Assembly: GCA_902801485.1 (NCBI GenBank)
Contig: CADCIP010000009.1
Coordinates: 19,589 to 83,588, forward strand
Reading direction: 5' to 3'
DNA length: 64,000 nucleotides
Source: an uncultured Bacteroidales bacterium
Lineage (GTDB): Bacteria > Bacteroidota > Bacteroidia > Bacteroidales > Bacteroidaceae
Part shown: piece by piece, positions 326 to 63,374 of the stretch
Position numbering within the stretch: the first letter of the stretch is position 1
Layout: each line of letters starts with the position of its first letter
Notes under the pieces: model-generated
Database searches by the model: none
What the model was told of the DNA's origin: nothing
The model's input: only the letters and a program-made list of their open reading frames with translations
Program-made: the position numbers and the translations under genes

Positions 326-2353
326 TTACCATCCAGGGTTCTGTGTTAGTCCGTATCCCTTCTGAATCTCGATACGGGAAACAGGGTCGAGATACCACTT
401 GTTTGTCCAGTAACCGGGATCCCACCAACGGCGGGCACCGTTTACAATCTGAGGTTTCTCGTACTCGAACTTAGGCCATGGTGTACCGGCCACCCAGGAT
501 TGATCACCTTCTGTCAGGCGATTGCCGTTAGCATCCAGACGATAAACGCGGATCTCATGAAGAGGTTTGGTGAAGAGATCCTGACGCTTGCGACGTACCA
601 TATCGTACAGACGGTCGCCACACTCGGCTCCAATCTCACAGTTACGTTCGCGGAGAATCTCATCAATCAGGTTGTCCTTATTGGTGGTCAGGTTCAGCTG
701 CGGGTTCATGGCTTCAATGCGACCCAGTCCTACGCGACTGCGAACCGTAGCCAGGTCGTTCAGTGCACCGGTGAAGTCGCCAGTTTCTGCCCTGGCTTCG
801 GCACGTATGAGATACATTTCTGCCAGACGGATGTAGGATACACCGATATACTCATCATTCATTCTGTTATCCTGGTAGTCTAACATCCATTTGAACTTCC
901 TATAATGAGAGGCACAATCATCCGATCCGGCATCTCCGTATGTATCCTTGTTATAGAACATACCTCCCTGTTCCCAAGTATCGGCATAGTTCCTGCCATT
1001 ATAGTCGAAACCGGCGGGCAATGACTGTCTGGGTACCAGAATTGTCTCATAAAGACGGGGGTCGCGATTGGCAAAGATATCTATGCCTGTAGGATTCTTA
1101 CCCGGACCATAAATGTCCATGTACGGGAAATTACGACCATCCTGCATGCCGAAGCATTCCATCAACTCGTTTGTGGGAACGGCACCACCTTGACGGTAGC
1201 AGTCCAGAGCGAAACCAGCCCATCCCCAACCCCAAGAGTTCTGACGCTGGCCATTTACCACTGCGTCACTCAGGTACTGTGTAGGATGCACGTCGAAAAT
1301 TTTCTCGTGATAATTCTCGTTGTTACGATAGCGGTAGGCACGACGGAAAGCTGTACGATAACCAGCCTCGTCCTGAGTAACAGGCTGTACCAATTGGTAG
1401 TAATTGCCATTGGCTTCGTTCTCTGTAAAGAAATCATTGCAATATTGCAAGCAGCGATTCCAAAGAGTGGGATCCTCCTTGCCGAACCAAACGTGTTCTT
1501 CGGTCTCCAGTCCGGTCGGAGTCTTAGAGTACTTTAAATAAGGTTCTTTATTATTGAACAGCGGTGAAGCGGCAAACATCCAGACCTTAGCACGTAAGGC
1601 ACGAGCAGAAGCCTTGGTAAGACGACCCGACCATTGGCCTATATCGGCATCGGGAATGTTCCAGATGTATCCAGGTTCGTCGATAGCGCACTGGATTAGC
1701 GAGTCGATGAACTGTACGGTCTCCCAAGCAGTGGAACGACCTCCTGTGAAGTTCTCGCCTACGCCGTATGCTTTCTTTACAAGGCACAGACCGCCGAAAT
1801 TACGGAACGCATCGTAGTAACGGCTAGCCATAATCGTATAAGCCTCGCCACGCAAACGACTCTTCTCGTTTTCGCTCATGTCCGGCACACGTTTAATATT
1901 CTCGATAATCTGCCAGCACTTGCGCACCGTCTCATAGATAGAGACACGACCGTCGGCATCATAACTCGGAGACTTCGTAGAATAAGAGAATTTACCAACA
2001 TAATTACCGTTGTCCGTATCCTGGGCATCCTCGGTCAGACCGCCGGGATAATAGCTCTGTTTAGGGCCACCCCAACTTACATAACAATGGTAGGAGTCGG
2101 AAAGGACATCGATAGGTGCTCCGTTCATCATGTTTCCGGAGGTATAGGTACAATAGAGCTGCCCATAGGCACTCCAAAGGAAATTGCGGGTGTATTCGGC
2201 CTTAGAGAACACCGTGTCGATATTTATGTCAACACCAGGGGCTTTCTCCAAGAAGGCATTACCAATGTTGACCTCGTCAACGCATGATGTGAAAATGCCG
2301 GTCGTCAACCCTATAGCCAGTATATAAATAAGTAACTTTTTCATATTCTTCAT
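326..2353 (-). CDS. SusD/RagB-family outer-membrane glycan-binding lipoprotein
   Basis: Surface lipoprotein that caps the SusC barrel and binds the oligosaccharide for import. The start chosen is MKNMKKLLIYILAIG at 2353 (MKK at 2344 is also possible), because it gives a proper type II signal peptide with lipobox TSC. An in-frame ATG further upstream (2386) would add a non-signal leader. At about 675 aa it is at the long end for SusD. SusD hallmarks are visible: TPR-like helices in the N-terminal half (SRLRGEAYTIMASRYYDAFR, ASARALRAKVWMFAASPLF) and the late RagB segment SYIRLAEMYLIRAEARAETG, followed by LRERNCEIGAECGDRLYDM. It follows SusC by 41 bp and precedes a second SusC, so this is a standard SusC-SusD transport pair. 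The ligand is unknown. Confidence 0.93.
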   Translation of the reverse strand: MKNMKKLLIYILAIGLTTGIFTSCVDEVNIGNAFLEKAPGVDINIDTVFSKAEYTRNFLWSAYGQLYCTYTSGNMMNGAPIDVLSDSYHCYVSWGGPKQSYYPGGLTEDAQDTDNGNYVGKFSYSTKSPSYDADGRVSIYETVRKCWQIIENIKRVPDMSENEKSRLRGEAYTIMASRYYDAFRNFGGLCLVKKAYGVGENFTGGRSTAWETVQFIDSLIQCAIDEPGYIWNIPDADIGQWSGRLTKASARALRAKVWMFAASPLFNNKEPYLKYSKTPTGLETEEHVWFGKEDPTLWNRCLQYCNDFFTENEANGNYYQLVQPVTQDEAGYRTAFRRAYRYRNNENYHEKIFDVHPTQYLSDAVVNGQRQNSWGWGWAGFALDCYRQGGAVPTNELMECFGMQDGRNFPYMDIYGPGKNPTGIDIFANRDPRLYETILVPRQSLPAGFDYNGRNYADTWEQGGMFYNKDTYGDAGSDDCASHYRKFKWMLDYQDNRMNDEYIGVSYIRLAEMYLIRAEARAETGDFTGALNDLATVRSRVGLGRIEAMNPQLNLTTNKDNLIDEILRERNCEIGAECGDRLYDMVRRKRQDLFTKPLHEIRVYRLDANGNRLTEGDQSWVAGTPWPKFEYEKPQIVNGARRWWDPGYWTNKWYLDPVSRIEIQKGYGLTQNPGW

Positions 2354-2394
2354 TTTTATAGCGGTAGCAAATCTTTCACTATTCACTTTAAACT

Positions 2395-5300
2395 TTAGAA
2401 ATTGACTTGTACACCAAAGTTAAACACACGTGTCATAGGATAACGCATTCCGAAGTCGAGTCCTGATCCGGGAGCTTCGGGGTCATTACCTTTGAAGTTC
2501 GCAAACGTCAGCAGATTCTGACCAGAAACATAGAACCTCACGTAATTGAACAATGGTACCCACTTGGGATTGTTGAAGGTATAGCCAATCTCGACATTCT
2601 TCAAACGGGCGTACTTAGAATCGATAATCCATGCCCGTGAATCACGATTGTTATGAACGCGATTTTCGAACGAGATACGCGGCAAAATAGCCCCGGGATT
2701 ATCCTCTGTCCATGAATTGTCGGCTACCCACTGTGCCAGTGCAGAAGTATTTGTAGATCCGAACTGGTCGCGGAAGTATCCGTTCAGCACGCGGCTTGTA
2801 TTTGTAGCACCTACCCAAAGCATTGAGAAATCGAGTCCCTTCCAGTTCAGGCTGGCATTGACAGACCAGGTAAACTCGGGATTTTCGGTATAGCCAAGGG
2901 GTTTCTGGTCGTTCTGATCGATTAAACCGTCGCCATTCAAGTCAACATAAACAGCATCACCATATTTTAATGCTATATTCTGGTCAGGCATATTCACGCC
3001 ATATTTCTGCAGGTAGCGGTCTTCTGTACCTTCCTGATAGAATTCAAAGAGGTCGTAGCCAAAACGCTGTCCTACAGGAAGCCCTGTACGGCTCAGATAA
3101 TCATACATGGGTGGCACCTCGAGCATATCGATCACCTTGTTTCTGGCAAAGGCAATGCTTGGACTGATGTTATATCGGAAGTCACCTACTTTATCGGCCC
3201 ACTTGAGGGTCAGTTCGAAACCATGATTCTTAACACGGCCCTCGTTGACAACACCTGCGGGAAGGCTGGTTACTGCAGGCAAAAGAGCTGCATTCGACAC
3301 CAGAATATCCTTGCGATCCTCCCAGAAGAAGTCGAGGTTCATGCCCAATCTGTCGTTAAAGAAATAAGCATCCAGACCAATATTGAACTTAGAAGCGGTC
3401 TCCCATGTAACGTTCGGGTTACCGGTTGTCATCTCCTTCACGGCCTGCAGCCAGTTGCCACTTGTACCGAAATTAGCGCCTCTTTCCTGCGGGTTAACAG
3501 TCATCGAGCCCTGGTAGAACTGCCACATACCTGGCAGATAGAGGAAACGGGCACTATTGGTATTGTCGTTACCGACCTTACCCCATGAACCACGAATTTT
3601 CAGGTAGCTGATAACGTCCTTCACGGGCTCCCAGAACTTTTCGCTGGATGGAATCCAACCGACAGAGAAAGACGGGAATGTACCATAGCGCTTACCCTCG
3701 GCAAAATTCTCGGAACCATTATAACCGATGTTGAAATCGATCATGTAGCGTGAGAGATAGTCGTAGGTAACACGGCCCACGAGTCCGACATAACCAGAGG
3801 GAATATCGGTATAGCTAGTGGGATAATACCTCTTAGACTGGTTGTAAAGGAACAATGCGCCCACATTGTGATTGCCGAACTTACGAGCATAGTTAAAGCT
3901 TGCCTCGGCATACCAGTTACGTCCTCCCCACCGGCTCTCAGAGTAAGGCAAAGGCCAAGTAATATTCTCCTTGCGGAGCACTTGCTGTCCATCCACGATT
4001 GTTGCCACGTATGTGACGCCAGTACCAAATCCGTTCTGACGGTTTTTCTGGGCCGAATATTCAGAATTATAAGAACCCTTTATCCTGAAATCCAGACCCG
4101 GTGTAAGGAAACTCATATCGAGTTTGTACTGAAGGTCGAGGTTCAATACGTTGGTGCTTGTTTTCGTATAGCCTAAGTCATAAAAGTTAGAAAGCGCGTC
4201 GCGGTCGTAAGGACCAACGATGTTGGCATCCGCAACGACATGACGGCCTTGTTCGTCGATTCCGATACCGGCATACGGGGTAGCTCCCTGCAGATAGCGG
4301 AATAAGAAACCTTCGCCGCTACCCATTTCCGTACGGTTCTGGACACGGCCTCCCAAGGTGAGCGCCAATTGGCTATACTTGGAGATGTCGATATCCAAGT
4401 TGGCACGATAGTTGAACCTGTTATAATGGAAGGTCTCGTCATTATTAGCAGAAAAAGTCTTAATAAGTGAGCTCTGGTTCATAAACCCGGCAGAGATGAA
4501 ATACCTCACCCTCTCGGAGCCACCTTTAACATTCACGTTTACCTGTTCCTGCCATGCAGCATTCTTCATCAGATAGTCAATCCAATTGGTATTGGGGAAT
4601 GTAACAGGCATGTCACCCTTGCGGAAATGTTCCATTACATCCTGGTTGAATCGAATGCCGGTGTTTGCATAGGGCGTATAATCGGGAATATTGGTGGTAC
4701 CGGGCCATTGGGTCATTGGTAAAGCATCTGTGATAGCTGCATAGTTCCACATCTTTCCGTATGTATGAGAATCAGCGAAGTCAACGAATTTAGAAACCTG
4801 CTGTACGGCAGCACTTGCAGAAACAGAAACAGAGGCTTTTCCTACCTCTCCACGTTTCGTGGTAACCAGGATTACGCCGTTAGCACCCCGTACACCGAAT
4901 ACAGCAGTTGCCGAAGCATCCTTAAGGACAGAAATTTCCTGAATTTCGTTGGGGTCGATTTGCGAGAAGGGACGTTCAACACCATCGACGAGTACCAACG
5001 GTTCGGCACTATTAAGCGTACCAATACCACGAACTCGGATAGTTGGTTCGTCGGCACCAGGCATACCAGAGGGCTGTACCACCGAGATACCCGGCAGTCT
5101 TCCCTGCAAGGCATTGGCAACATTTGCCACAGGCGCCTTTAACAGTTCCTCACCACCCACAGCAGAAACAGCACCGGTAAGGGTCAGCTTCTTCTGCTGT
5201 CCATAAGCGATTACCACCACCTCGTCCAGAACTTTCTGATCAGGTAGCAAACTAATGATTAATGGTTTCCCATCAACCTTACGTGTCTGCGTCTGGTAAC

Positions 5301-5541
5301 CCATGTAGGAGATTTCCAGAGTTGCGCCACGTTCTACCGATGGAAGGACAAAGTGTCCGTCAAGATCCGTGAGGGCACCTACGCTGCTTGAGCGAACCTT
5401 GACAGTCGCTCCGATGAGAGGTTCCCCAGTCTCGTCTTTTACAGTTCCTTCCACTGTTAAACTCTGGGCAAACACGACATTAGGTAGCAGGAATAAGATA
5501 ACCAGCATACCTAGCAAATAACTTTTCGTTGTCTTCTTCAT
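2395..5541 (-). CDS. SusC/RagA-family TonB-linked outer-membrane transporter
   Basis: A 1048-aa TonB-dependent receptor that imports SusD-bound glycans into the periplasm using proton-motive force passed through TonB. The order is: signal peptide (VVFAQ, cut near residue 26); carboxypeptidase-regulatory-like domain at about 28-105 (VEGTVKDETGEPLIGATVKV); TonB-box-like stretch DEVVVIAYG; plug at about 120-240 (LQGRLPGISVVQPSG, then IRVRGIGTLNSAEPLVLVDG and DASATAVFGVRGANGVILVTTK); then a long beta-barrel ending NFGVQVNF with a terminal aromatic residue, as usual for barrel proteins. Length and order are normal for the family. It is the first gene of the operon, with a candidate promoter at 5685-5714 and a leader of about 140 nt. 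No sigma/anti-sigma or hybrid two-component regulator is next to it in this window. Confidence 0.95.
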   Translation of the reverse strand: MKKTTKSYLLGMLVILFLLPNVVFAQSLTVEGTVKDETGEPLIGATVKVRSSSVGALTDLDGHFVLPSVERGATLEISYMGYQTQTRKVDGKPLIISLLPDQKVLDEVVVIAYGQQKKLTLTGAVSAVGGEELLKAPVANVANALQGRLPGISVVQPSGMPGADEPTIRVRGIGTLNSAEPLVLVDGVERPFSQIDPNEIQEISVLKDASATAVFGVRGANGVILVTTKRGEVGKASVSVSASAAVQQVSKFVDFADSHTYGKMWNYAAITDALPMTQWPGTTNIPDYTPYANTGIRFNQDVMEHFRKGDMPVTFPNTNWIDYLMKNAAWQEQVNVNVKGGSERVRYFISAGFMNQSSLIKTFSANNDETFHYNRFNYRANLDIDISKYSQLALTLGGRVQNRTEMGSGEGFLFRYLQGATPYAGIGIDEQGRHVVADANIVGPYDRDALSNFYDLGYTKTSTNVLNLDLQYKLDMSFLTPGLDFRIKGSYNSEYSAQKNRQNGFGTGVTYVATIVDGQQVLRKENITWPLPYSESRWGGRNWYAEASFNYARKFGNHNVGALFLYNQSKRYYPTSYTDIPSGYVGLVGRVTYDYLSRYMIDFNIGYNGSENFAEGKRYGTFPSFSVGWIPSSEKFWEPVKDVISYLKIRGSWGKVGNDNTNSARFLYLPGMWQFYQGSMTVNPQERGANFGTSGNWLQAVKEMTTGNPNVTWETASKFNIGLDAYFFNDRLGMNLDFFWEDRKDILVSNAALLPAVTSLPAGVVNEGRVKNHGFELTLKWADKVGDFRYNISPSIAFARNKVIDMLEVPPMYDYLSRTGLPVGQRFGYDLFEFYQEGTEDRYLQKYGVNMPDQNIALKYGDAVYVDLNGDGLIDQNDQKPLGYTENPEFTWSVNASLNWKGLDFSMLWVGATNTSRVLNGYFRDQFGSTNTSALAQWVADNSWTEDNPGAILPRISFENRVHNNRDSRAWIIDSKYARLKNVEIGYTFNNPKWVPLFNYVRFYVSGQNLLTFANFKGNDPEAPGSGLDFGMRYPMTRVFNFGVQVNF

Positions 5542-53754: not shown

Positions 53755-54348
53755 TTATTTTTCAAACCAACTGTGTATGGCAGTATCGTAATGACTGCTT
53801 ACGCCAAAGGCACGGGTAGCAAACCACTTGCGGTCTTCTATCTCGCTCTGAGCACCCTGCTTCTGCAACAAGTCCAGCAAAGGTTTGTACTCAGCCTTAG
53901 AGGGAACAATGATAACATCGCGGAAGTTCTTTGCTGCAGCACGGATAAGGCTGATTCCACCTATATCTATCTTCTCGATGATGTCTGCAGGACAGGCACC
54001 GCTTGCCACCGTGTCCTCGAAGGGGTATAGGTCAACGATTACCAAGTCGATAGCAGGAATCTCATACTGCTTCATCTGTTGCCGGTCACTCTCCAGCTCC
54101 CTGCGTCCCAGTATGCCGCCGAATACTTTGGGATGAAGGGTTTTTACTCTACCACCCAAGATGCTGGGGTATGTGGTAACATCCTCCACCTTCTGACAGG
54201 GAATACCCAAACTCTCGATAAAGGTCTGAGTACCACCGGTGCTCAACAGTTCAACACCTTGCGCATTCAGGGTGCGCAGAATCTCCTCTAATCCGTCTTT
54301 GTGAAAAACAGACACCAGAGCTCGCTGGATTTTTCTTGTTTCTGCCAT
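53755..54348 (-). CDS. Stand-alone IMP cyclohydrolase domain (PurH N-terminal part)
   Basis: A 197-aa protein (start ATG 54348, MAETRKIQRALVSVFHKDG). This is the MGS-like IMP cyclohydrolase domain of PurH, which closes FAICAR to IMP in the last step of purine synthesis: LLSTGGTQTFIESLGI, TTYPSILGGRVKTLHPKVFGGIL, and DIGGISLIRAAAKNFRDV. The AICAR formyltransferase domain (about 300 residues) that follows in bifunctional PurH is absent; the protein ends AIHSWFEK. Either the formyltransferase is encoded elsewhere or the pathway uses another enzyme. There is no sign of a nearby frameshifted remainder. Upstream of mreB, where full-length purH is often found in Bacteroidales. Confidence 0.87.
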   Translation of the reverse strand: MAETRKIQRALVSVFHKDGLEEILRTLNAQGVELLSTGGTQTFIESLGIPCQKVEDVTTYPSILGGRVKTLHPKVFGGILGRRELESDRQQMKQYEIPAIDLVIVDLYPFEDTVASGACPADIIEKIDIGGISLIRAAAKNFRDVIIVPSKAEYKPLLDLLQKQGAQSEIEDRKWFATRAFGVSSHYDTAIHSWFEK

Positions 54349-54390
54349 ATATAATGTAAATTTGTGCGTACGCGCTACTTTATGGGGCTG

Positions 54391-54398
54391 CAAAATTA
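54391..54398 (-). promoter_or_regulatory. -7 box of the purH-mreB cluster promoter
   Basis: Minus-strand TAATTTTG (54391-54398) fits TAnnTTTG, 42 bp before the purH start. The -33 position has no clear TTTG. It faces away from the GH43 promoter. Confidence 0.45.
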
Positions 54399-54460
54399 CA
54401 TATTTTCTATTAAAGAGCCACATTTTTCTTCCAAATTTTAATAAAAAACAGAAAATTATG

Positions 54461-54468
54461 TATCTTTG
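54461..54468 (+). promoter_or_regulatory. -7 box of the second GH43 gene
   Basis: TATCTTTG at 54461-54468 fits TAnnTTTG and lies 33 bp before the GH43 ATG. The -33 element is degenerate (AT-rich, TTTTA around 54436-54440). Confidence 0.5.
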
Positions 54469-54501
54469 CCCTCTGTAATGAAATAAACCATAGAAACAAC
54501 G

Positions 54502-55485
54502 ATGACCCTACAATATTATCGCCGACTCATTCTTTTACCTGTTTTCCTGATGTCGCTTTTGGCCGGTGCACAGCAAGTAAAGAATCCTGTCTGGATGCGT
54601 AATTGGCCCGACCCGACTGTTTGGAAGGCAGAGAATGGACGATACTACTGTATAGCAACCAATCCGCGCAGATGCCTTGTTAGCGAGGATTTGTTCAACT
54701 GGCAATTATCAGATATCTCACCTATTGATGAAACTTCCTGGAAAACCATCTCAGATATTTCACGTAATTTTTGGGCACCCGATGTTGCAACGGTTGATGG
54801 CAAGCATCTCATGTACCTCACCTTGTATAATAGTGCTGAGGACAGTAACATTGGCGTCTTTCAAGAGGTTGCACCCTGTCAGTTCCAATTCAATGGTATC
54901 ATCACCAAAGGAAAAGAGACAGGTATCGAAGATACTATAGACCCAGAGGTTGTTACAGACCCTAAAACAGGAAAGGTATGGCTGTTCTTCGGATCTGTAG
55001 GGGGTATTCACCGCATCGAATTGAACAAAGACGGGCTTTCCATAAAAGAAGGAGCCCAGTATGAACATGTAGCAGGTTTGACAGTTCATCAGTGTCCCGA
55101 CCGCTCAAAGGTTTTTGAAGGCTCCTACCTTCACTGGCACAAAGGGTACTGGTACCTGTTTGTTAGTTCAGGGTTCTTTGGAAATCACACCTATCAGCTG
55201 CAGGTCGGACGCAGCAAAAAACTAACAGGTAAATTCGTAAACCGCGAGGGAAAACCTATGACGGAAGGATATGCCACACCTGTGCTGCATAGTGACGAAG
55301 GTGATAATTTCTTTGGCCCTGGTCATTGTGGCGAGATCTTTACGGCAGCAGATGGAAACGAATACATCTTTTATCATTGTCATGTTCGCGAGAGCCAGCG
55401 CCCGGAACAACGCCCCATGTTTATGTCACGCATCCAGTGGGGCAAGGACGGATGGCCTTTTGTTGAAGGAGGGAAACCGATTTAG
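54502..55485 (+). CDS. Secreted GH43-family glycoside hydrolase (arabinanase/xylosidase group), single domain
   Basis: A 327-aa single-propeller enzyme with signal peptide (LMSLLAGAQQ). Catalytic base in RNWPDPTVWKAENG, pKa Asp in GIEDTIDPEVVTD, acid Glu in KVFEGSYLHWHKGY; the calcium/metal-site type His is in FFGPGHCGEIF. Lacks the C-terminal sandwich present in the GH43 at 8493-10025. The compact form suits endo- or exo-arabinanase-type activity, but the substrate is unresolved. It is a single transcription unit in front of a repeat spacer. Confidence 0.9.
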   Translation: MTLQYYRRLILLPVFLMSLLAGAQQVKNPVWMRNWPDPTVWKAENGRYYCIATNPRRCLVSEDLFNWQLSDISPIDETSWKTISDISRNFWAPDVATVDGKHLMYLTLYNSAEDSNIGVFQEVAPCQFQFNGIITKGKETGIEDTIDPEVVTDPKTGKVWLFFGSVGGIHRIELNKDGLSIKEGAQYEHVAGLTVHQCPDRSKVFEGSYLHWHKGYWYLFVSSGFFGNHTYQLQVGRSKKLTGKFVNREGKPMTEGYATPVLHSDEGDNFFGPGHCGEIFTAADGNEYIFYHCHVRESQRPEQRPMFMSRIQWGKDGWPFVEGGKPI

Positions 55486-55604
55486 AGTTGAGAGTTGAGA
55501 GATAGTTTAAGGGGGTTAAAGAGTTTAAGAGGTTAAAGAGTTTAAGAGTTTAAGAGGTTTAAGAGTTTAAGAGGTTTAAGAGTTTAAGAGGTTTAAGAGG
55601 TTCG
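55486..55604 (+). repeat. Spacer of GAGAGTT, AAGAGTTT and AAGAGGTTT repeats
   Basis: Starts GAGTTGAGAGTTGAGAGA and then gives about ten tandem units of AAGAGTTT/AAGAGGTTT/AAAGAG type to 55604. It separates the GH43 gene from the ECF sigma gene and no promoter box is visible within it. Confidence 0.92.
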
Positions 55605-55640
55605 CTAACCGCTAAATATGAATTATGAACTGAAAAACTG

Positions 55641-56210
55641 ATGGCAGTTGACGAGAAATCGATAATTCACGGCCTTGTTGAAGGAGCAGAGGATGCATAC
55701 AGGTATGTGTTCAATACATACTATGGACCTATGTGTATTCTGGCTGAGAGCATTCTTTCCGACGAGTTCCTGGCACAGGCTGCGGTTTCCGATGTCATCA
55801 GCCATCTCTACGAGGTTCGAAGCGAGGTTGTTATTCATTCCAACCTCAGAAGCTACCTGATGATGAGCACACGCAATCATTGTCTTAATTTGCTTAATTC
55901 CAAGACGGTGCGTTCCGTGCAGACATTCAGCACATTGGGCGAGCAGGATGTACGCAACGTACTTGCTGGTACAGATACAGTTACCCCTCAGGGAAAGTTA
56001 CTCGACAACGAACTGGAAGATTTGATGCATGACTGCATAGAGAATCTCCCTGAACCAGTTAAGACAACTTTCATCAAGAGCCGTTTCCAGGATATGACCT
56101 ACCGCCAGATAGGTGCCGAGGACGGTGTTAGTGCCAATACCGTAAAAGTTCGCATTCAGCAAGCATTAAAGTTGATTGAGAAGCGATTCTCTAAATATCT
56201 GGCTTTTTAA
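55641..56210 (+). CDS. ECF RNA polymerase sigma factor (Bacteroidetes FecI-like type)
   Basis: A 189-aa ECF sigma of the Bacteroidetes FecI-like group. Region 2: EDAYRYVFNTYYGPMCILAESILSDEFLAQAAVSDVISHLYE and YLMMSTRNHCLNLLN. Region 4: LEDLMHDCIENLPEPVKTTFIKSRFQDMTYRQIGAEDGVSANTVKVRIQQALKLI. Such sigmas are held by a FecR-type anti-sigma and freed when a surface receptor signals. The FecR-like gene follows directly (76 bp). No SusC/SusD receptor is adjacent, unlike the usual triad. Confidence 0.92.
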   Translation: MAVDEKSIIHGLVEGAEDAYRYVFNTYYGPMCILAESILSDEFLAQAAVSDVISHLYEVRSEVVIHSNLRSYLMMSTRNHCLNLLNSKTVRSVQTFSTLGEQDVRNVLAGTDTVTPQGKLLDNELEDLMHDCIENLPEPVKTTFIKSRFQDMTYRQIGAEDGVSANTVKVRIQQALKLIEKRFSKYLAF

Positions 56211-56286
56211 CATTTTTTATAATGCTCCATTAACACAACAAGGTAAAGATTTTGTCATACTTATGAGGATAAGTAAAAATAAACGA

Positions 56287-58134
56287 ATGAAAGAAAACCA
56301 GGATATTACACTAAATATCATTGATTACCTTACTGGAGAAATCTCTCAGGCGGATGCAGATGCTCTTGCCCAATGGGTTATGGCCTCTGAAGAGAATGCC
56401 CGGCAATTTGTCCGCATGAAAGAAGCATGGATGGGGTCATCAATAATAGAACATGCTTACGATGGCGAGGCAGCATTTCTGCGTTTCAAGAGACGTGTGC
56501 TGAAACGTTCTATCGTTCCTAATGCTACTTGGATGCAACGCCACCGCTCAGGTGTCCGTCAGGCCATGCTGTGGGCAGCAGCCATTCTGTTCCCGATTTT
56601 GCTGACCTGTACCACCATTATGTATTATAATCTCAGCAGCCTGTCAGAGGGAGAAATGGTAGCATCTACAGTTGCCGGAGAAACCACTACCCTACAATTA
56701 CCGGATGGAACTCAGGTAATGCTAAAGGAAAACTCCGTACTCACGTATGTCGCCAGTGATTTTGCCCGTGGAAACCGTTCGATAAAATTCCAGGGCTCTG
56801 CTTATTTCACGGTTACATCAGATGCCAGCCATCCCTTCCAGATTACCACAGAGAAGGAGCAGGTTCGTGTTTTAGGAACTGAATTCTTCCTGATTAGCGA
56901 AAAAGGCAGCCAGAAAGATATCCTTTCCCTGGATAAGGGAGTAGTAGAGTTTACAGATCACAAGACAGGTAAAGTAGTTCACATGGAGACTGGAGACGAA
57001 CTTGTTTACAATACTGTTACCGGCAACACATATTGCAGACCGCGTTCCGGCGATGAAGTTAAACTGGCACAGGAGACATATAAGAACAATTCCGTTTCCC
57101 ATTCTGTCTATGCCGAGCTGGAACAGCTTGTAAGCGACCGTGCAGGCAGTCACACTATCCAGTTAAATGTAAGCAAGGGTCTTAAGGCAGGTCTTTATCA
57201 GGTAGAGATAGACCCGGAATGTGCTATAGCTCGCTTTACTCCAGCACCGGATACTGCCAGATTCTCAAGCGGTGACGGAAGCAAAGAACACCCCTATGCC
57301 ATAAGCAATGTCCGTCAGATGTGTAATATGAAGTCAGTTCTTACACCTTACAAAATGACATATTTCTGTCTTACCAGTGATATCGACCTTCAAGGTATAG
57401 AATGGGTTCCGCTAAACGACAGAGCAGACGAATATTCCCTTTGGATAACACTGAATGGTAACGGACATGTTATCCGTAACCTCACCACTTCACGTACAAG
57501 TTATTATGGAAGTTTCTTCGGCGTGCTATGCGGTGAGTGCAAGAATGTGGGCTTCGAGAACGTAAACATTAACTGTTCCGGTTATGGGGCAGGTGCTGTT
57601 GCCGGTTATCTGGGTCACTCTGCATACCCTGGTGTATCTGTCTTGGAAAACTGTTATGCAACAGGTAAAATCAGCGGTCAGTGCTATGTAGGTGGTCTTA
57701 TCGGTAATATTGGCAGCAAGTCAGTCCTAAGAAATTGCTATTCGGCAGTAGATGTGAACAGTTCCAACAGTTATGCCGGCGGACTGGTTGGCAAGGTTCG
57801 TGCCCCCTATGTTATGGAGGGTTGCTACAGTTCAGGTAGCGTTGTCGGTCAATTTGCAGGCGGATTGGTTGGTGGCGGTCAGCAGAAGAGCACCCCTCAC
57901 TCGCGAATCCATGATGTCATGGCCATCAATCCCTACGTTTCAGGATCCCGTCAGTCATACGCCGTAATGCCCATTATCGATGGCGACACCATAAGTCACA
58001 TGTCACATTCATCCAACCTTTATCTTAACGGCAAACGTACAGGCGACGGTTTATCAGACAAGGAAGTAAGAGAGCGTTTGAACAACTTACGCAACGTCTG
58101 GTACGGTTCCAAAGTAGGCAGAATAGCGGAATAA
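56287..58134 (+). CDS. FecR-type anti-sigma factor fused to GLUG repeats
   Basis: A 615-aa single-pass membrane protein. Start MKENQDITLNIIDYLTGEIS at 56287 fits FecR N-termini; earlier in-frame starts (56263, 56176) lack support. Order: anti-sigma N-terminal helical domain (1-70), membrane helix (AMLWAAAILFPILLTCTTIM, 93-112), FecR periplasmic domain (about 125-245: STVAGETTTLQLPDGTQVML, FQGSAYFTVTSD, LGTEFFLIS). Normal FecR-like proteins of this group end with a small STN/DUF4974 domain near residue 320-350. Here, from about 330, there is a beta-helix-type region with GLUG motifs: ENCYATGKISGQCYVGGLIG, RNCYSAVDVNSS..YAGGLVG, EGCYSSGSVVGQFAGGLVGG. GLUG repeats are usual in surface or adhesin proteins. 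The fusion suggests direct sensing by the anti-sigma itself. The function is inferred. Confidence 0.85.
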   Translation: MKENQDITLNIIDYLTGEISQADADALAQWVMASEENARQFVRMKEAWMGSSIIEHAYDGEAAFLRFKRRVLKRSIVPNATWMQRHRSGVRQAMLWAAAILFPILLTCTTIMYYNLSSLSEGEMVASTVAGETTTLQLPDGTQVMLKENSVLTYVASDFARGNRSIKFQGSAYFTVTSDASHPFQITTEKEQVRVLGTEFFLISEKGSQKDILSLDKGVVEFTDHKTGKVVHMETGDELVYNTVTGNTYCRPRSGDEVKLAQETYKNNSVSHSVYAELEQLVSDRAGSHTIQLNVSKGLKAGLYQVEIDPECAIARFTPAPDTARFSSGDGSKEHPYAISNVRQMCNMKSVLTPYKMTYFCLTSDIDLQGIEWVPLNDRADEYSLWITLNGNGHVIRNLTTSRTSYYGSFFGVLCGECKNVGFENVNINCSGYGAGAVAGYLGHSAYPGVSVLENCYATGKISGQCYVGGLIGNIGSKSVLRNCYSAVDVNSSNSYAGGLVGKVRAPYVMEGCYSSGSVVGQFAGGLVGGGQQKSTPHSRIHDVMAINPYVSGSRQSYAVMPIIDGDTISHMSHSSNLYLNGKRTGDGLSDKEVRERLNNLRNVWYGSKVGRIAE

Positions 58135-58167
58135 TTTCCATTACTTCTCTTTTTTTCTGCCCAAAAG

Positions 58168-58199
58168 TTTGGCAGATAGCAGAAAAAGCAATACCTTTG
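58168..58199 (+). promoter_or_regulatory. tRNA-Met promoter
   Basis: TTTG (58168-58171) and TACCTTTG (58192-58199) are 20 bp apart, 18 bp before the tRNA 5' end. Good match to the Bacteroidetes consensus. Confidence 0.8.
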
Positions 58200-58217
58200 C
58201 AACCGCAAACACAAAAT

Positions 58218-58291
58218 GGCGGGATAGCTCAGCTGGTTAGAGCGTCGGATTCATAATCCGGAGGTCGTGGGATCGTGACCCACTCCCGCTA
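58218..58291 (+). tRNA. tRNA-Met (CAT), elongator type
   Basis: 74 nt without encoded CCA. Acceptor GGCGGGA/TCCCGCT pairs with a G-U at the first pair; D arm GCTC/GAGC; anticodon stem TCGGA/TCCGG with loop TTCATAA (anticodon CAT); T stem GTGGG/CCCAC. The T loop reads ATCGTGA rather than the usual TTCGAAT or TTCAANY pattern, so positions 54 and 58 appear as A and T, the reverse of the normal T54-A58 pair. G1-U72 and lack of three G-C pairs in the anticodon stem argue against an initiator. A terminator hairpin follows. Confidence 0.9.
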
Positions 58292-58294
58292 CAG

Positions 58295-58331
58295 AAAAGG
58301 GATTTACGAGTTAATCGCAAATCCCTTTTTT
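58295..58331 (+). terminator. Rho-independent terminator after tRNA-Met
   Basis: AAAAGGGATTT (58295-58305) and AAATCCCTTTTT (58319-58330) pair as an 11-bp stem ending in a T run. It also serves the convergent C10 protease gene (stop at 58354) on the other strand. Confidence 0.85.
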
Positions 58332-58353
58332 GGTACATATAACAGGTTAATAT

Positions 58354-60786
58354 CTATTCAAGCCTGATCTTCTTTCCATTCTTAATCACAATTCCCTTAT
58401 AACCACCAGTCACACGCTGACCGCTTAGGTTGTACGGAGCGCCATCACCTTGACCCTTGAACCTTGAACCCTGAACCTCCTTTATGCCTGTGGGTTCCGG
58501 AACGGTAAGGGAGAAATTGGCAAAGACGAAGTAGTCACCGTCATCTGTACTGTTGAAATCGTAGCTGATATACAGGTCAATGTCGTAATCACCTGCCTCC
58601 AACTCTCTTGGCAGTCTGATAGATGCTGTTTCTGTCATGTTTGCTGCAAGTTGGAACGGTACTTTTAACAAGGAGTCTGCACAGAACTCTAATGGGTCGA
58701 ATCCGCCTTCGCCGTCCGGGATATAAATTTTTGCTCTCAGCTCAGCATCATAATCTAATGGAGTGTTATTTCTTGTAATGGCGTCAAGATAATAGGCAGG
58801 TTGGTTGTTCTCATCAAGCCGTTTGTCGTAACTTAGTTCCTGGCAGTAGAATTCCAGATCCTCTATGGTAATGTTCTTGTGAGCAATATATCCGTAAATA
58901 TCTTTTATGTCTGCCAGCGGTGTGCCAGAGAAATCGCCGCCGCCTTTAGAGAGAAGAACAACATAGTTACCAGCCCATGGAATAGAGAAATTGAAGCGGA
59001 TATCTGAAGTACCCTTCCCTTCAATGATGAGACCTAGCCTTTCGTATTCGACCAGAAACACCAGCTGTTCGTCTTCCACATAATATATGTCACAGTCTAA
59101 ATCTCCGGTGTAGTCATCGTCGCTGCTGTTGATAATGGTTGCAGAACCATTCAGTCGGAGGTTGTACTGAAATAATCCCTCAATCTTAAAGGACTCATCC
59201 TGGCATGCCAGTTGTGGCATTGGGTGATAAAGAGTGTCCTTTGGCATTCCGTCGTCACCGATGACGAATTCTACGCAGCAATTAGTGCCGAAGATCGGTT
59301 GCCAGGCAGCGTTTGTTCCTGCCTCTCTGTTTACGAAAACCATCTTGTGACTGCCCGGGGTCAGACTCTCAGTTACATTTTCAGGTATATTTATCACCGC
59401 AATTCCAGTACCCTCTACCTGATGCATAGCATAATCATATCCGTCTGCCTCCACGTTCTGCATTCCATAGAGTTGGCGCAAGTCAGGCATACCGTCTTCA
59501 TTGAGTTCGGCCATAGCAACTTCAAAGACACCAGGTTTGTAGGATGTGTTGAGAGCTTCGAACAGGTAAGGCATATCCTCAAAGTTTGTGGTCCAATAGT
59601 AGTGAATAAGGTAACGGCCATAGTCGCTTGGCGGATTCTCTGCCGGTTTCAGACCGATGAGGGCATCCTGCCATCTGGTAAAGGGGTCATAAGAAAAGTC
59701 ATGCCTCCCAGACTGTTTCGTGCTAGGATTAAGCAGGCTTAACTTATAGTAGCCGTTGTTTTCTCCTGCCCATCCCCAGTTTACGTGATAGTATCCGCTG
59801 CCGTCCTGAACTGCATAGCCGTCCAAGATGAATTGATGCCCGGCAAAATCAGAGAATCCTGTATAGACTATGGGACGGCCTTCTTTAAGTTCGTTATAGA
59901 GCAGGTTGTCCCAGTCGCTCACCGTATAATTAACCGAACTTGCATAATACAGATTCTGGTCATACCCAAACTGGTTGACAAGTATGTCTCTATCATAAGC
60001 CATAGCGCCAGAGCCTTTTGGTGTATATTCCGTCTGTATCATCTGTCCGCAGTAGCGCATGAGCAAAGCAACTGCATCCTGCTGTTCCTTGGTAGTGGGT
60101 TGTGTGTAGTCATCCACCATATTGGCCCAGTCGAATGATGTTGGAGGGAGTGCATCGACGGAAAGTCCGTCTATGGTCTCGTATGCAGGCAATTCTCCGA
60201 CAATGGATTCCTGTGGCCATCGGTAATAGTACATCACCTGAGCCATTGCTGTTGCCATGCAGCCAGCGGGACACAGTTTCCCGTCAACTTCCGGACAGAA
60301 GGCATTATACGGTTTTTGCGGATCGTATTTATTGCTGCCCTGCGACCATAGGGATTTTATGAAGTATGGTATGTCGGCATGAGTGGCTACTGCTGTCGCC
60401 TTCGCACCGCTTCGGCTCAGTTCGGTAATCTGACTTGCCGTCTGTTCCAGCCACCACTTCATGTTATCGGGAACCGACCCGGCATCGAAGCTTCCCCTGT
60501 CGGTATAACCCAGCACAAGATTATCACCCACGCAGTCGTCGCCGCTCACAATGACGAAGCCCTGCCCGGCAGTGGCATTAAACACGTAATAAGGAGTCTT
60601 CTCTGCTACAGCACGCCTACTGGTAGCACGGCCATTTGGCGTGATGGCATCATCCTTCACTACAGCACCTTTGCTCTGCAAAAATGTCGCTGCTATCTGT
60701 CGGGCAGAACTATAAGAAACAGGGTCTGCCATACAATCTGCTGCAATGCAGAGAACTGTCACAAACATTAAAAGAACCTTTTTCAT
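58354..60786 (-). CDS. Secreted C10-family (streptopain-like) cysteine protease with C-terminal tail
   Basis: An 810-aa preproenzyme. Signal peptide (MKKVLLMFVTVLCIAADCMA); propeptide of the Spi type (SARQIAATFLQSKG, then TPYYVFNATAGQGFVIVSGDD) to about 130; the mature peptidase has the catalytic Cys176 in CPAGCMATAMAQVMYYY and His317 in FAGHQFILDGY, with the VNWGWAGENNGYY loop. From about 390 there are several beta-sandwich segments of unknown binding role. The C-terminus APYNLSGQRVTGGYKGIVIK resembles the conserved tail of many Prevotella secreted proteins, possibly a secretion/anchoring signal. A 7-bp repeat (58448-58477) encodes the linker VQGSRFKGQGD just before that tail. Its promoter block is identical over 30 bp to that of the PBP1 lipoprotein upstream. 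Confidence 0.9.
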   Translation of the reverse strand: MKKVLLMFVTVLCIAADCMADPVSYSSARQIAATFLQSKGAVVKDDAITPNGRATSRRAVAEKTPYYVFNATAGQGFVIVSGDDCVGDNLVLGYTDRGSFDAGSVPDNMKWWLEQTASQITELSRSGAKATAVATHADIPYFIKSLWSQGSNKYDPQKPYNAFCPEVDGKLCPAGCMATAMAQVMYYYRWPQESIVGELPAYETIDGLSVDALPPTSFDWANMVDDYTQPTTKEQQDAVALLMRYCGQMIQTEYTPKGSGAMAYDRDILVNQFGYDQNLYYASSVNYTVSDWDNLLYNELKEGRPIVYTGFSDFAGHQFILDGYAVQDGSGYYHVNWGWAGENNGYYKLSLLNPSTKQSGRHDFSYDPFTRWQDALIGLKPAENPPSDYGRYLIHYYWTTNFEDMPYLFEALNTSYKPGVFEVAMAELNEDGMPDLRQLYGMQNVEADGYDYAMHQVEGTGIAVINIPENVTESLTPGSHKMVFVNREAGTNAAWQPIFGTNCCVEFVIGDDGMPKDTLYHPMPQLACQDESFKIEGLFQYNLRLNGSATIINSSDDDYTGDLDCDIYYVEDEQLVFLVEYERLGLIIEGKGTSDIRFNFSIPWAGNYVVLLSKGGGDFSGTPLADIKDIYGYIAHKNITIEDLEFYCQELSYDKRLDENNQPAYYLDAITRNNTPLDYDAELRAKIYIPDGEGGFDPLEFCADSLLKVPFQLAANMTETASIRLPRELEAGDYDIDLYISYDFNSTDDGDYFVFANFSLTVPEPTGIKEVQGSRFKGQGDGAPYNLSGQRVTGGYKGIVIKNGKKIRLE
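58448..58477 (-). repeat. CCTTGAA-type heptamer repeat inside the C10 protease gene
   Basis: Plus-strand units CCTTGAC, CCTTGAA, CCTTGAA and CCCTGAA (58448-58475) lie in the coding sequence right before the C-terminal tail. One unit more or less would frameshift and lose the tail. Confidence 0.92.
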
Positions 60787-61100: not shown

Positions 61101-63374
61101 TTACGGACGTGGTCCGGGACGCTGGTTCTTCCTCTGATAGAAACTCAGGAATGGAAGAACGGCATCGTCCGTCAGATTGTCCTTGGTAATATAGATAGGA
61201 GCAATCAGTTCGTCTGTGGTAGAGTTATTGATTACTGCCTCTACAGCTTTCTTGCCCATCTCGAATGTATTCTGAGCAAAAATACCCTTTATAACATTGC
61301 CGCCTGTCAACAGATCCTGAAGGAACGTCTCATATACGTCGATCGTATAGACAGCCTTGTTGCTCTCCTTGAACAAATCGAAAGCCGGTTCCAGTGCACT
61401 GCCATTAAAGAATACGAAGCTGTCGAATTCGTTAAAGGCTGTCTCTACATCGCTCCTTGCATCATCTCTTGTGGTGACGAAGATTTGTGAATCTGATTTC
61501 TGCTCCTTGAATGCCAGGGCACGCTCTACACCCGGGGTGTTCAATATAGCAAAGGCAGCCGCCTTAGGTTCTGTTACCTTCTCGGCCAAAAGCTGACCGG
61601 CGGCAACGGCATCCGTACCGATGAAAGGACAGCTTGCAAGCGGGCTGTCAGCATCTACGCGGGCATCGATGATGATAACGGGGATGTTGAGTTGCTTGGC
61701 CAGGGCAGCCACTTCAGCATCGGCAGTTTCTCCGTTCAAACCCTTACATGGGGCATAGATAATACCCTTCAGGTCGTTGTTCGGGCGATTAGCCAATTTC
61801 CTTACTGCTGCTATCTGCTCCTGATATGTATATTCGGTGGTAGTGCAGAAGTAATCGCCCATCATGTCATTATCGCGGCAAGCCTCGCGGAAGGCATCCT
61901 CGATTTGCTGGAAGTACTCGATCTGGCCTTCCTTTACAATCATGGCAATGCTTCCGTTGTGTGGACGCACATTACGGACATTACTGATTGTAGATTCAAT
62001 GAACTGCAGGAGTTGGCGTACCACAATGATAGCTTGCTGCATGGGTTCGATAGCGTGGTCAACAATATTGATACCATAGGCTATACTCTCCTGATCAATC
62101 AGCTCTGTGATAGGCACATAGCTCTCCTCGTCGGCAAACTTGAGAGCAGGAACACTATGGAAGTCAACTCCAATCTTTACAGTCTGCAGTTGCATGGGAA
62201 TGGTCTGGTTCAGGTCTTTGCAGCTCATAGAACCGGAAATGAGGCCGTTCAGCTGCTTAACATAGCCTTCGATAGTCTGCTGGTCGGCATAGTTGCGACG
62301 GGCAGAAATCATCTCATTGCGAATCAGCATTGCCTTCTGGCAGTCGCTTATCTTCATATTGGTTGTCAGGTCGTCCAACAGGGTCAGCGAACCCTCGTCC
62401 AGACTGCTGCCAGACATTAAAGCAGCGAATATATCAAAGAGACTGCCGCCAGTGGCAATCTGAGACACATCGATGAAATTGGTATAATCGGTGAAAACTG
62501 TCTTTGCATCCAGCATCTTCTTGCCATTATGAGAGAAACTGAAAATCATACCACCCTTCTTGACAGAAGGATCCGTGCCGATAGCAAAGTGGGTAGTTGT
62601 GGCATCACCCGGCAAGCCCTGCTGTTCAACCGCAGGCAAAGAAGAATTCAGCGTACCGGAGACATTATAGGCATCGGTCTTACGATCGAAGTATTCTGAT
62701 GTTCCGAGCAGTTTCACATCGTTCTTGAAAGTACCGGAAAAGAGTGTAACCCATGAACCGGAGGTATTGCATGAAATGGCAAACGTAAAGTCTGTCGGCA
62801 CGATAGCGACACAGGCTAATGAAGGATCATTCAGACTTGGAATCAGCTGTTTGAAGTTACTGCCACCAGACTTCAGGACAAGTTTCAATATGCCTTTCTC
62901 CACCTGTTGGGTTTCGGGGCTCCATCCGTTCACAATCATCTCGAAATCTTCTGCCTTTTCAACATCGAAGCCAGAGTTATCATCCTTCATCGTAAAACGA
63001 TAGTTGAATTCTGTCAGGTCGATGGTAACCTGATTCTCGTAGCCCATGTTTGCAAGCTCACTACCCGGTTCAACCGGTTTCATAGACTCACGTGCTTTCT
63101 GACGGAAAAGTGGAAGCACCTGAGCTTCGAACTCCGGATTATTAAGCACATACTTGTTGAACATCAGGTTGATGGTGCTGGCAAATTTCATGGATTCGAA
63201 ATTCATATTCTCAGCCATTTCCTTCAAGTTGGCCTTAGTGTGGGTCAGGAACTCCTGACGCTTCTTTCCTCCCTGCTCATGCTCAGCAGGGTTGTCATCT
63301 TTACTACAAGATGTAAACACGCTTGTACCGCAAACAAATGCGATAGCAAATAACAATAGTTTTGTAATCTTCAT
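61101..63374 (-). CDS. Lipoprotein with large unknown N-terminal region and C-terminal PBP1 sugar-binding domain
   Basis: A 757-aa lipoprotein (lipobox FTSC, then SKDDNPAEHEQGGKKR linker). The first ~450 residues are not recognised: helical start (ANLKEMAENMNFESMKFAST), then beta-rich sequence with NYRFTMKDDNSGFDVEKAEDF and a helical block QKAMLIRNEMISARRNYADQQ. From about 470 a periplasmic-binding-protein type 1 fold begins: SIAMIVKEGQIEYFQQIEDAFREACR, LKGIIYAPCKGLNG, LNIPVIIIDARVDADSPLASCPFIGTDAVAAGQLLAEK and VIKGIFAQNTFEMGKKAVEAV, the pattern of RbsB/LacI-type ligand binders. Ends QRKNQRPGPRP. Likely a surface or periplasmic sensor or binding protein for sugars, by inference. Shares a promoter block with the C10 protease. 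Confidence 0.8.
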   Translation of the reverse strand: MKITKLLLFAIAFVCGTSVFTSCSKDDNPAEHEQGGKKRQEFLTHTKANLKEMAENMNFESMKFASTINLMFNKYVLNNPEFEAQVLPLFRQKARESMKPVEPGSELANMGYENQVTIDLTEFNYRFTMKDDNSGFDVEKAEDFEMIVNGWSPETQQVEKGILKLVLKSGGSNFKQLIPSLNDPSLACVAIVPTDFTFAISCNTSGSWVTLFSGTFKNDVKLLGTSEYFDRKTDAYNVSGTLNSSLPAVEQQGLPGDATTTHFAIGTDPSVKKGGMIFSFSHNGKKMLDAKTVFTDYTNFIDVSQIATGGSLFDIFAALMSGSSLDEGSLTLLDDLTTNMKISDCQKAMLIRNEMISARRNYADQQTIEGYVKQLNGLISGSMSCKDLNQTIPMQLQTVKIGVDFHSVPALKFADEESYVPITELIDQESIAYGINIVDHAIEPMQQAIIVVRQLLQFIESTISNVRNVRPHNGSIAMIVKEGQIEYFQQIEDAFREACRDNDMMGDYFCTTTEYTYQEQIAAVRKLANRPNNDLKGIIYAPCKGLNGETADAEVAALAKQLNIPVIIIDARVDADSPLASCPFIGTDAVAAGQLLAEKVTEPKAAAFAILNTPGVERALAFKEQKSDSQIFVTTRDDARSDVETAFNEFDSFVFFNGSALEPAFDLFKESNKAVYTIDVYETFLQDLLTGGNVIKGIFAQNTFEMGKKAVEAVINNSTTDELIAPIYITKDNLTDDAVLPFLSFYQRKNQRPGPRP

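Follow-up and report, generated by a model that had tools for sequence, protein, structure and literature searches.

Genes at the locus

The present analysis concerns a sigma/anti-sigma gene pair within a window of 64,000 nucleotides (the whole stretch of DNA analysed; contig CADCIP010000009.1) from an uncultured Bacteroidales bacterium, whose genome (G000) is available as a 3.6 Mb assembly, 85% complete. In the usual account of surface signalling in Bacteroidota, a receptor of the TonB-dependent kind drives the system by informing the anti-sigma factor FecR of bound ligand, and FecR proteins of this phylum usually carry a C-terminal DUF4974 (FecR_C, PF16344) domain. The FecR-type protein described here ends in a GLUG beta-solenoid instead, and sequence comparison identifies the system as a real, conserved variant of FecR signalling, RsgI-like in layout. 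The two genes are separate open frames, both on the forward strand, and the glycoside hydrolase gene ahead of them is possibly the first of a transcription unit that includes the pair:

54502..55485, + strand: GH43 glycoside hydrolase, arabinan endo-1,5-alpha-arabinosidase-like (Pfam PF04616, E 1.3e-40)
55641..56210, + strand: extracytoplasmic function (ECF) sigma factor, 189 aa (TIGR02937, PF08281)
56287..58134, + strand: FecR-type anti-sigma factor with fused GLUG solenoid, 615 aa

The sigma factor passes TIGR02937 (69 bits, cut-off 42.9) and falls below the cut-off of the Bacteroidota subfamily TIGR02985 (114.3 vs 126.4 bits, residues 19-181), with Pfam detecting region 4 (PF08281, E 1.4e-11) and giving no match to region 2. 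It is 85-91% identical to its counterparts in eight other metagenome-assembled genomes (MAGs), in all of which it measures 197 aa; the window copy is 8 residues shorter, apparently through a one-base difference near the stop (56180-56215). For the anti-sigma gene, an alternative start at 56263 would yield a protein of 623 aa.

Architecture of the fused anti-sigma factor

Along the 615 residues, five successive segments can be distinguished:

56287..56556, + strand: residues 1-90, putative cytoplasmic anti-sigma region, helical and DUF4880-like (DUF4880 E 0.0028, sub-threshold)
56563..56625, + strand: residues 93-113, predicted single transmembrane helix (hydropathy maximum 2.03, windows 93-94)
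56665..57021, + strand: residues 127-245, FecR domain (PF04773 at 127-208; alignment with 4m0n)
57022..57258, + strand: residues 246-324, linker where conventional FecRs have DUF4974 (pLDDT mostly <50)
57259..58134, + strand: residues 325-615, GLUG beta-solenoid (PF07581; 3n6z by sequence and Foldseek)

Both defining domains score above their Pfam cut-offs, PF04773 with E 7.9e-15 (55.5 bits against 24) and PF07581 (Glug) with E 4.4e-9 (36.6 bits against 20.5), and Pfam finds FecR and Glug in each of the 10 aligned fused members. Residues 325-607 can be aligned to GLUG proteins, and residues 328-503 match PDB 3n6z by sequence (E 9.7e-32). The latter is a solved GLUG protein (BACOVA_03286) without a FecR match, which its title calls a putative IgA1 protease, although the title sets no function. 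An AlphaFold2 model built from nine close sequences (mean pLDDT 59) is poor in the FecR domain and linker and better in the solenoid, where residues 331-530 reach pLDDT 72-93 per block of ten. It places N-terminal helices at 7-16, 21-33, 35-49 and 60-74, and a helix at 87-117 that spans the predicted membrane segment; the cytoplasmic location of residues 1-90 is assumed from the family. Foldseek matches the model first to 3n6z (E 4.6e-15) and then to the FecR structures 4m0h and 4m0n, with PupR and pectate lyase appearing only at E >0.001. As far as the model goes, the solenoid fold is uninformative on whether the ligand is a sugar or a protein.

Whether the linker conceals a DUF4974 domain was addressed by two routes. 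Pfam detects PF16344 in 0/10 fused members. For profile comparison, C-terminal FecR tails of 60-140 residues were collected from 40 FecR-matching fetched loci, of which 35 were kept, one of them from the genus of the window; length excluded five, namely four conventional-length FecRs of the genus and one fused protein. In leave-one-out hhalign comparisons, with one near-duplicate omitted, all 34 control tails scored >97% probability, whereas the window linker reached 0.2-0.4% against the tail profile in four cuts and a nine-row linker alignment 0.0. A hidden DUF4974 was thus rejected (Pfam 0/10; hhalign <=0.4%). A weak alignment, up to residue 283, with the beginning of the 4m0n region that resembles DUF4974 leaves room for a short vestige of the first DUF4974 helix, which the linker may hold.

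Conservation and spread of the fusion

Among 139 genomes of the genus (G000 included), the full-length FecR-GLUG protein occurs in nine, namely that of the window and those of eight other species, where it is 70-81% identical and lies in the same genomic place. A tenth genome (G097) encodes, at another location, a 563-aa FecR-GLUG protein that has diverged, with 34% identity in the FecR part and 39% in the GLUG part. A search of GTDB r220 contigs with the sigma factor alone returned eight MAGs, four of whose titles mention rumen or reticulum, and the pair was present in 8/8; all eight had already been counted in the genus search and none is additional.

Across the nine orthologues, median dN divided by median dS gives 0.046 for the sigma factor, 0.054 for the FecR domain (residues 120-245), 0.062 for the GLUG module and 0.129 for the linker; as many dS values are saturated and 14 of 36 pairs are undefined for the whole protein, only the lowness of these ratios counts. 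By this measure the GLUG module is under purifying selection, with a constraint similar to that on the FecR domain. A single frame kept in eight other species, together with low dN/dS, indicates that the fusion is neither a chance nor a frameshift product.

Beyond the genus, 399 genomes sampled from the family and 393 from the order were searched with two profiles, one of the FecR part and one of the entire protein; at most three (whole-protein profile) or six (FecR-part profile) candidates were scored per genome. No FecR frame >450 aa was present among the matches listed, although fusions outside the genus may have been missed since so few candidates were scored per genome. The FecR-GLUG fusion is thus apparently lineage-restricted, seen in one genus.

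Most structural claims of the first-pass annotation, which was made from the letters alone, hold up against these results. The N-terminal part, membrane helix and FecR domain that it described are confirmed (PF04773 and the hydropathy peak at 93-113, with DUF4880 sub-threshold), as is a GLUG region of about 285 residues (PF07581, the alignment over 325-607, and 3n6z). Its view that this region replaces DUF4974 is borne out as well, the finding it had named as contrary, a DUF4974 domain within residues 245-340, being undetected by Pfam and hhalign. The fused frame also stands, its other contrary case, an assembly or frameshift error, being excluded by the eight orthologues. The count across Bacteroidales that it proposed gives 10 fusions in 139 genus genomes and none outside the genus among the matches listed.

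Relatives of the GLUG module

By full-length score, the GLUG module most resembles that of GH43 enzymes of the same genus. In 21/21 non-FecR loci of the genus that were fetched with a frame matching residues 325-607, a GH43 domain lies in the same frame; phmmer with the window module gives these GH43-GLUG proteins 201-224 bits, and seven modules of other large proteins 122-174. The GH43-GLUG modules are 36-41% identical to that of the window over about the same length, while some other GLUG proteins reach 46% across ~215 residues only. Unlike the FecR-GLUG protein, GH43-GLUG proteins are not regulators, and carry a catalytic GH43 domain and a C-terminal tail that resembles a sorting signal (by eye).

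In a maximum-likelihood tree of 38 GLUG modules, midpoint-rooted for display, three groups emerge: the ten FecR-GLUG modules (96/85; recovered in 95% of bootstrap trees), the 21 GH43-GLUG modules (100/100) and the seven others (100/99). A single origin of the FecR-GLUG fusion is likely on this sequence evidence, with the caveat that the branch of the G097 module is long (1.58) and may reflect false joining.

The genome of the window itself encodes a GH43-GLUG protein of 1014 aa (locus L114, 1251-4295, on G000:C43), AbnA-like with E 2.2e-41 and with Glug just under the Pfam cut-off. At a distance of 0.8 kb, on the other strand, lies a gene for a 690-aa protein with Plug over the cut-off and CarboxypepD sub-threshold.

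Genomic setting: glycoside hydrolases and receptors

Directly before the sigma gene, and in the same direction, a GH43-like gene is found in 9/9 orthologous loci (the window copy by domain scan, the other eight assigned through shared sequence). From GH43 stop to sigma start, four loci have a 1-base overlap, one a 2-base gap and four 79-155 bases. The window enzyme resembles endo-1,5-alpha-arabinanases (PDB 1gyd, E 7.4e-24), its best NCBIfam match being AbnA (E 2e-26, though at 93 bits against a cut-off of 480), and its N-terminus is signal-peptide-like by eye. Upstream of GH43, on the other strand, lie a purH-like gene, mreB and mreC (window scanned; other loci by eye), while the downstream frames vary among the nine loci, those of L039 and L040 being alike (by eye). 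The G097 pair, adjacent ECF sigma gene included, has a GH31-PA14 gene on one side and genes for aldose epimerase, GH43 and GH2 on the other; an additional GH43 lies more distantly upstream. On gene content, there are thus two distinct settings, each with glycoside hydrolases, the nine orthologous loci constituting one of them.

FecR proteins occur in 15/139 genomes of the genus, one each, of which 10 are GLUG-fused (frames of 568-685 aa) and five of conventional length (396-407 aa). The three conventional FecRs fetched with flanks (L075, L076, L077) all contain PF16344, and near each lies the gene of a TonB-dependent receptor with a Plug domain (1113-1175 aa), whose CarbopepD domain is preceded by ~110-120 residues. 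Pfam does not call this N-terminal extension STN, although in L076 it gives a sub-threshold match to PF16344. In the remaining two (L048, L051), the start of a similar frame lies directly beside FecR (by eye). Around the fused gene the picture is different, with no SusC-like frame of at least 650 aa within ~6 kb before the sigma gene or 4 kb after the anti-sigma gene in the eight orthologous loci (by eye). The window ends at the contig end, 5.9 kb past the anti-sigma gene, and its recognised SusC/SusD pair (326-5541, opposite strand) lies ~50 kb off, the SusC being without an N-terminal extension (CarbopepD from residue 30). A search for STN (PF07660) covered 11 genomes, gave a match in one (G021, a fusion genome) and missed 4/4 genomes with a conventional-length FecR, so that the lack of an STN match in G000 says little.

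Putative promoter elements and the sigma/anti-sigma gap

Two short conserved elements lie before and within the presumed unit:

54461..54468, + strand: TATCTTTG, putative housekeeping-type promoter element TAnnTTTG, 33 bases upstream of the GH43 start
56252..56258, + strand: TTGTCAT, conserved, in the sigma/anti-sigma gap (9/9 loci)

The first, which we take to match the Bacteroidota housekeeping-type promoter consensus TAnnTTTG, occupies the same place in 9/9 aligned loci (by eye). The second lies 18 bases past the sigma stop in the eight orthologues, always at locus position 6613, and could be regulatory or translational. In these orthologues the sigma frame is 30 bases longer and the gap to the FecR start measures 52-53 bases, against 76 in the window. 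A scan of 54300-58400 with an E. coli-type promoter consensus gave seven sites, against 7.0 in shuffled sequence; one of them (56252-56280, 9 of 12) lies inside the sigma/anti-sigma gap, which the first-pass annotation had called promoter-like and which may hold a promoter.

A TTTCACTTTTTT block preceding TA..TTTG at GH43-GLUG genes was also considered as a cis-element of the sigma factor, since by eye it seemed conserved in 5/8 fusion genomes vs 0/12 others. A pattern search, which allowed a shorter spacer than some aligned promoters have, found it in 3/10 fusion genomes, in 6/8 without the fusion and not at all in G000, and the candidate was dropped as unspecific.

Proposed mechanism and alternative explanations

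The reading preferred here, to which we assign a probability of roughly 45%, is that of a FecR anti-sigma factor in which DUF4974 has been replaced by a GLUG solenoid that would sense a plant glycan directly, in an RsgI-like layout. A more specific version, held slightly more tentatively, is that glycan sensing is achieved by one protein without a receptor, through a module shared with GH43 arabinanase-like enzymes that moved to the anti-sigma factor, yielding an independent counterpart of RsgI. The topology, ligand, binding, proteolysis and regulon set out here are those that we infer for the FecR-GLUG system. A basal amount of sigma factor and fused anti-sigma factor would be made together with the upstream GH43 enzyme, the gene order being observed and the co-transcription presumed. 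The cytoplasmic segment would, as expected of the family, keep sigma at the membrane, while the periplasmic solenoid would bind a plant cell-wall oligosaccharide. Arabinan fragments are our best guess, because the neighbouring GH43 enzyme is arabinanase-like. Binding would then alter the FecR-solenoid unit such that proteases, an RseP-type site-2 protease putatively among them, free the sigma factor, which may in turn switch on glycoside hydrolase genes. FecR-type anti-sigma factors are cleaved by Prc and RseP once the receptor signals (PMC9249621), and the genome encodes a member of the site-2 protease family.

Direct sensing had already been proposed in the first-pass annotation and remains conditional, with added support from the GH43 gene before sigma in all nine loci, the position of the G097 pair among glycoside hydrolase genes, and the closeness of the GLUG module to GH43-GLUG proteins. 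Its statement that no SusC/SusD genes are adjacent agrees with the distance to the nearest recognised pair in the window. The further claim of independence from any receptor holds for the neighbourhood and does not extend to the whole genome, given the incompleteness of G000 (85%) and an STN-bearing frame in another fusion genome (G021).

Several observations weigh against direct glycan sensing. In G021, whose sole FecR is fused, this STN-bearing frame spans 1131 aa and lies where a contig begins (G021:C10:71-295), so a receptor could still take part. The nine orthologous loci are close kin, and the GH43 link may therefore be an inherited neighbourhood; the tree, being midpoint-rooted, is silent on the sister group of the FecR-GLUG modules; and no promoter signature in common with glycoside hydrolase genes was found, the TTTCACTTTTTT candidate being unspecific. 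After 3n6z and the FecR structures, the next Foldseek matches of the model are IgA1 proteases (7uvk, E 3.6e-5; 7uvl, E 3.0e-4), which implies that GLUG could bind protein. In the literature, the GLUG motif has been called one of unknown function, with adhesion suggested (PMC9723798), and a list of wall-anchored proteins, in which carbohydrases are numerous, includes a GLUG protein (PMC3617157); the available parts of both papers report neither sugar binding nor a ligand of GLUG.

The first alternative, rather unlikely but the most probable of the rivals, is that the GLUG module is a protein-docking platform and that an envelope or secreted partner, such as a GH43-GLUG enzyme in transit or a receptor whose gene lies elsewhere, carries the signal. 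The proximity of the model to 3n6z and IgA1 proteases fits such a role, as do the G021 genome with its STN-bearing frame and no FecR besides the fused one, the abundance of GLUG modules on other proteins of the same genomes, and the fact that in the standard FecR family the signal comes from a protein partner (PMC9249621). Yet DUF4974, the known docking domain, is undetectable, and GH43 alone, on the same strand, has been kept beside the module in nine loci while downstream genes vary.

Sensing of the envelope state, whereby misfolding or crowding of the solenoid or a failure of secretion would trigger proteolysis as in RseA-type systems, is improbable. It draws on mreB and mreC, which are near in 9/9 orthologous loci (window scanned, others by eye), but these genes lie on the opposite strand, beyond the purH-like gene, and no frame resembling MreB could be made out by eye on the G097 contig (14 kb). 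The GH43 neighbour and the glycoside hydrolase genes around the G097 copy moreover point to sugars.

Less probable again is the possibility that GLUG is a passive acquisition or spacer and the protein a poorly regulated remnant of a system that a receptor once drove, as might be suspected of a fusion seen in one genus only (10/139 genomes, with family and order samples also searched). Set against it are the dN/dS of the GLUG module, 0.062 vs 0.054 for FecR, and its retention in 8/8 loci found through the sigma factor alone. The joining of two genes by assembly or frameshift error is refuted, as the same single frame stands in the same place in eight other MAGs.

Were direct glycan sensing true, the anti-sigma factor itself could become the sensor, in parallel to clostridial RsgI; the system would furthermore offer a handle on what GLUG solenoids bind, and a sensor for plant-fibre degradation in rumen bacteria.

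Relation to known signalling systems

With FecR/FecI-type signalling of Bacteroidota, the system shares the adjacent ECF sigma factor, the N-terminal segment, the single membrane helix and the FecR domain, whereas DUF4974 is undetected, a GLUG solenoid stands in its place and no receptor gene is seen nearby. RsgI proteins of Clostridium thermocellum have polysaccharide-binding C-terminal modules, the one in RsgI6 resembling an enzyme (PMC4711584). The resemblance to RsgI lies in a C-terminal extracytoplasmic module that also occurs on enzymes and in the glycoside hydrolase setting. In contrast to RsgI, the sigma factor is of the ECF type and not SigI, a FecR domain replaces the RsgI N-terminus, the sensor would be periplasmic, and binding is a prediction only. 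Neither RsgI nor SigI families appear among the Pfam and NCBIfam matches listed (for sigma, the best 25 of 58 families).

Carbohydrate-binding parts within ECF sigma/anti-sigma systems have a precedent in actinobacterial ECF52 and ECF53, for which a review describes glycosyl hydrolase or carbohydrate-binding domains, termed predicted rather than validated, and a fused anti-sigma part (PMC10766802); sugar sensing by such systems is thus no new idea in itself. In these groups, unlike here, sigma and anti-sigma form one protein, and the available part of the review mentions neither FecR nor GLUG. Hybrid two-component systems of Bacteroides (see PMC10766802) likewise sense plant oligosaccharides outside the cytoplasm and control glycoside hydrolases, but Pfam finds no kinase or response-regulator domain here. 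Within the open-licence literature of PubMed Central, no papers were found that join FecR, GLUG and anti-sigma factors, that describe FecR/ECF sigma systems with a fused carbohydrate-binding anti-sigma factor, or that link FecR, LamG and a sigma factor in Planctomycetes.

Other features of the region

Between the GH43 and sigma genes of the window (55505-55602) lie tandem GTTTAAGAG-like units in ~11 copies, an array for which there is no room in the four orthologues with overlapping genes; a repeat similar to it precedes the GH43-GLUG gene of the same genome. The purH-like gene (53755-54387) has an MGS domain and covers no more of the AICARFT/IMPCHase model than its first 58 positions, and as purH-like frames measure 197-222 aa in 9/9 loci, a stand-alone cyclohydrolase part seems fixed here.

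Downstream, a gene for a C10 family peptidase with a Spi inhibitor propeptide domain (58354-60786) is oriented towards the FecR-GLUG gene, with a tRNA-Met (58218-58292) between the two. Further on, 61101-63374 encodes a 757-aa protein whose start looks lipoprotein-like by eye; its long N-terminal half has no Pfam match, and a periplasmic-binding-protein domain (Peripla_BP_4) lies C-terminally at residues 476-715.

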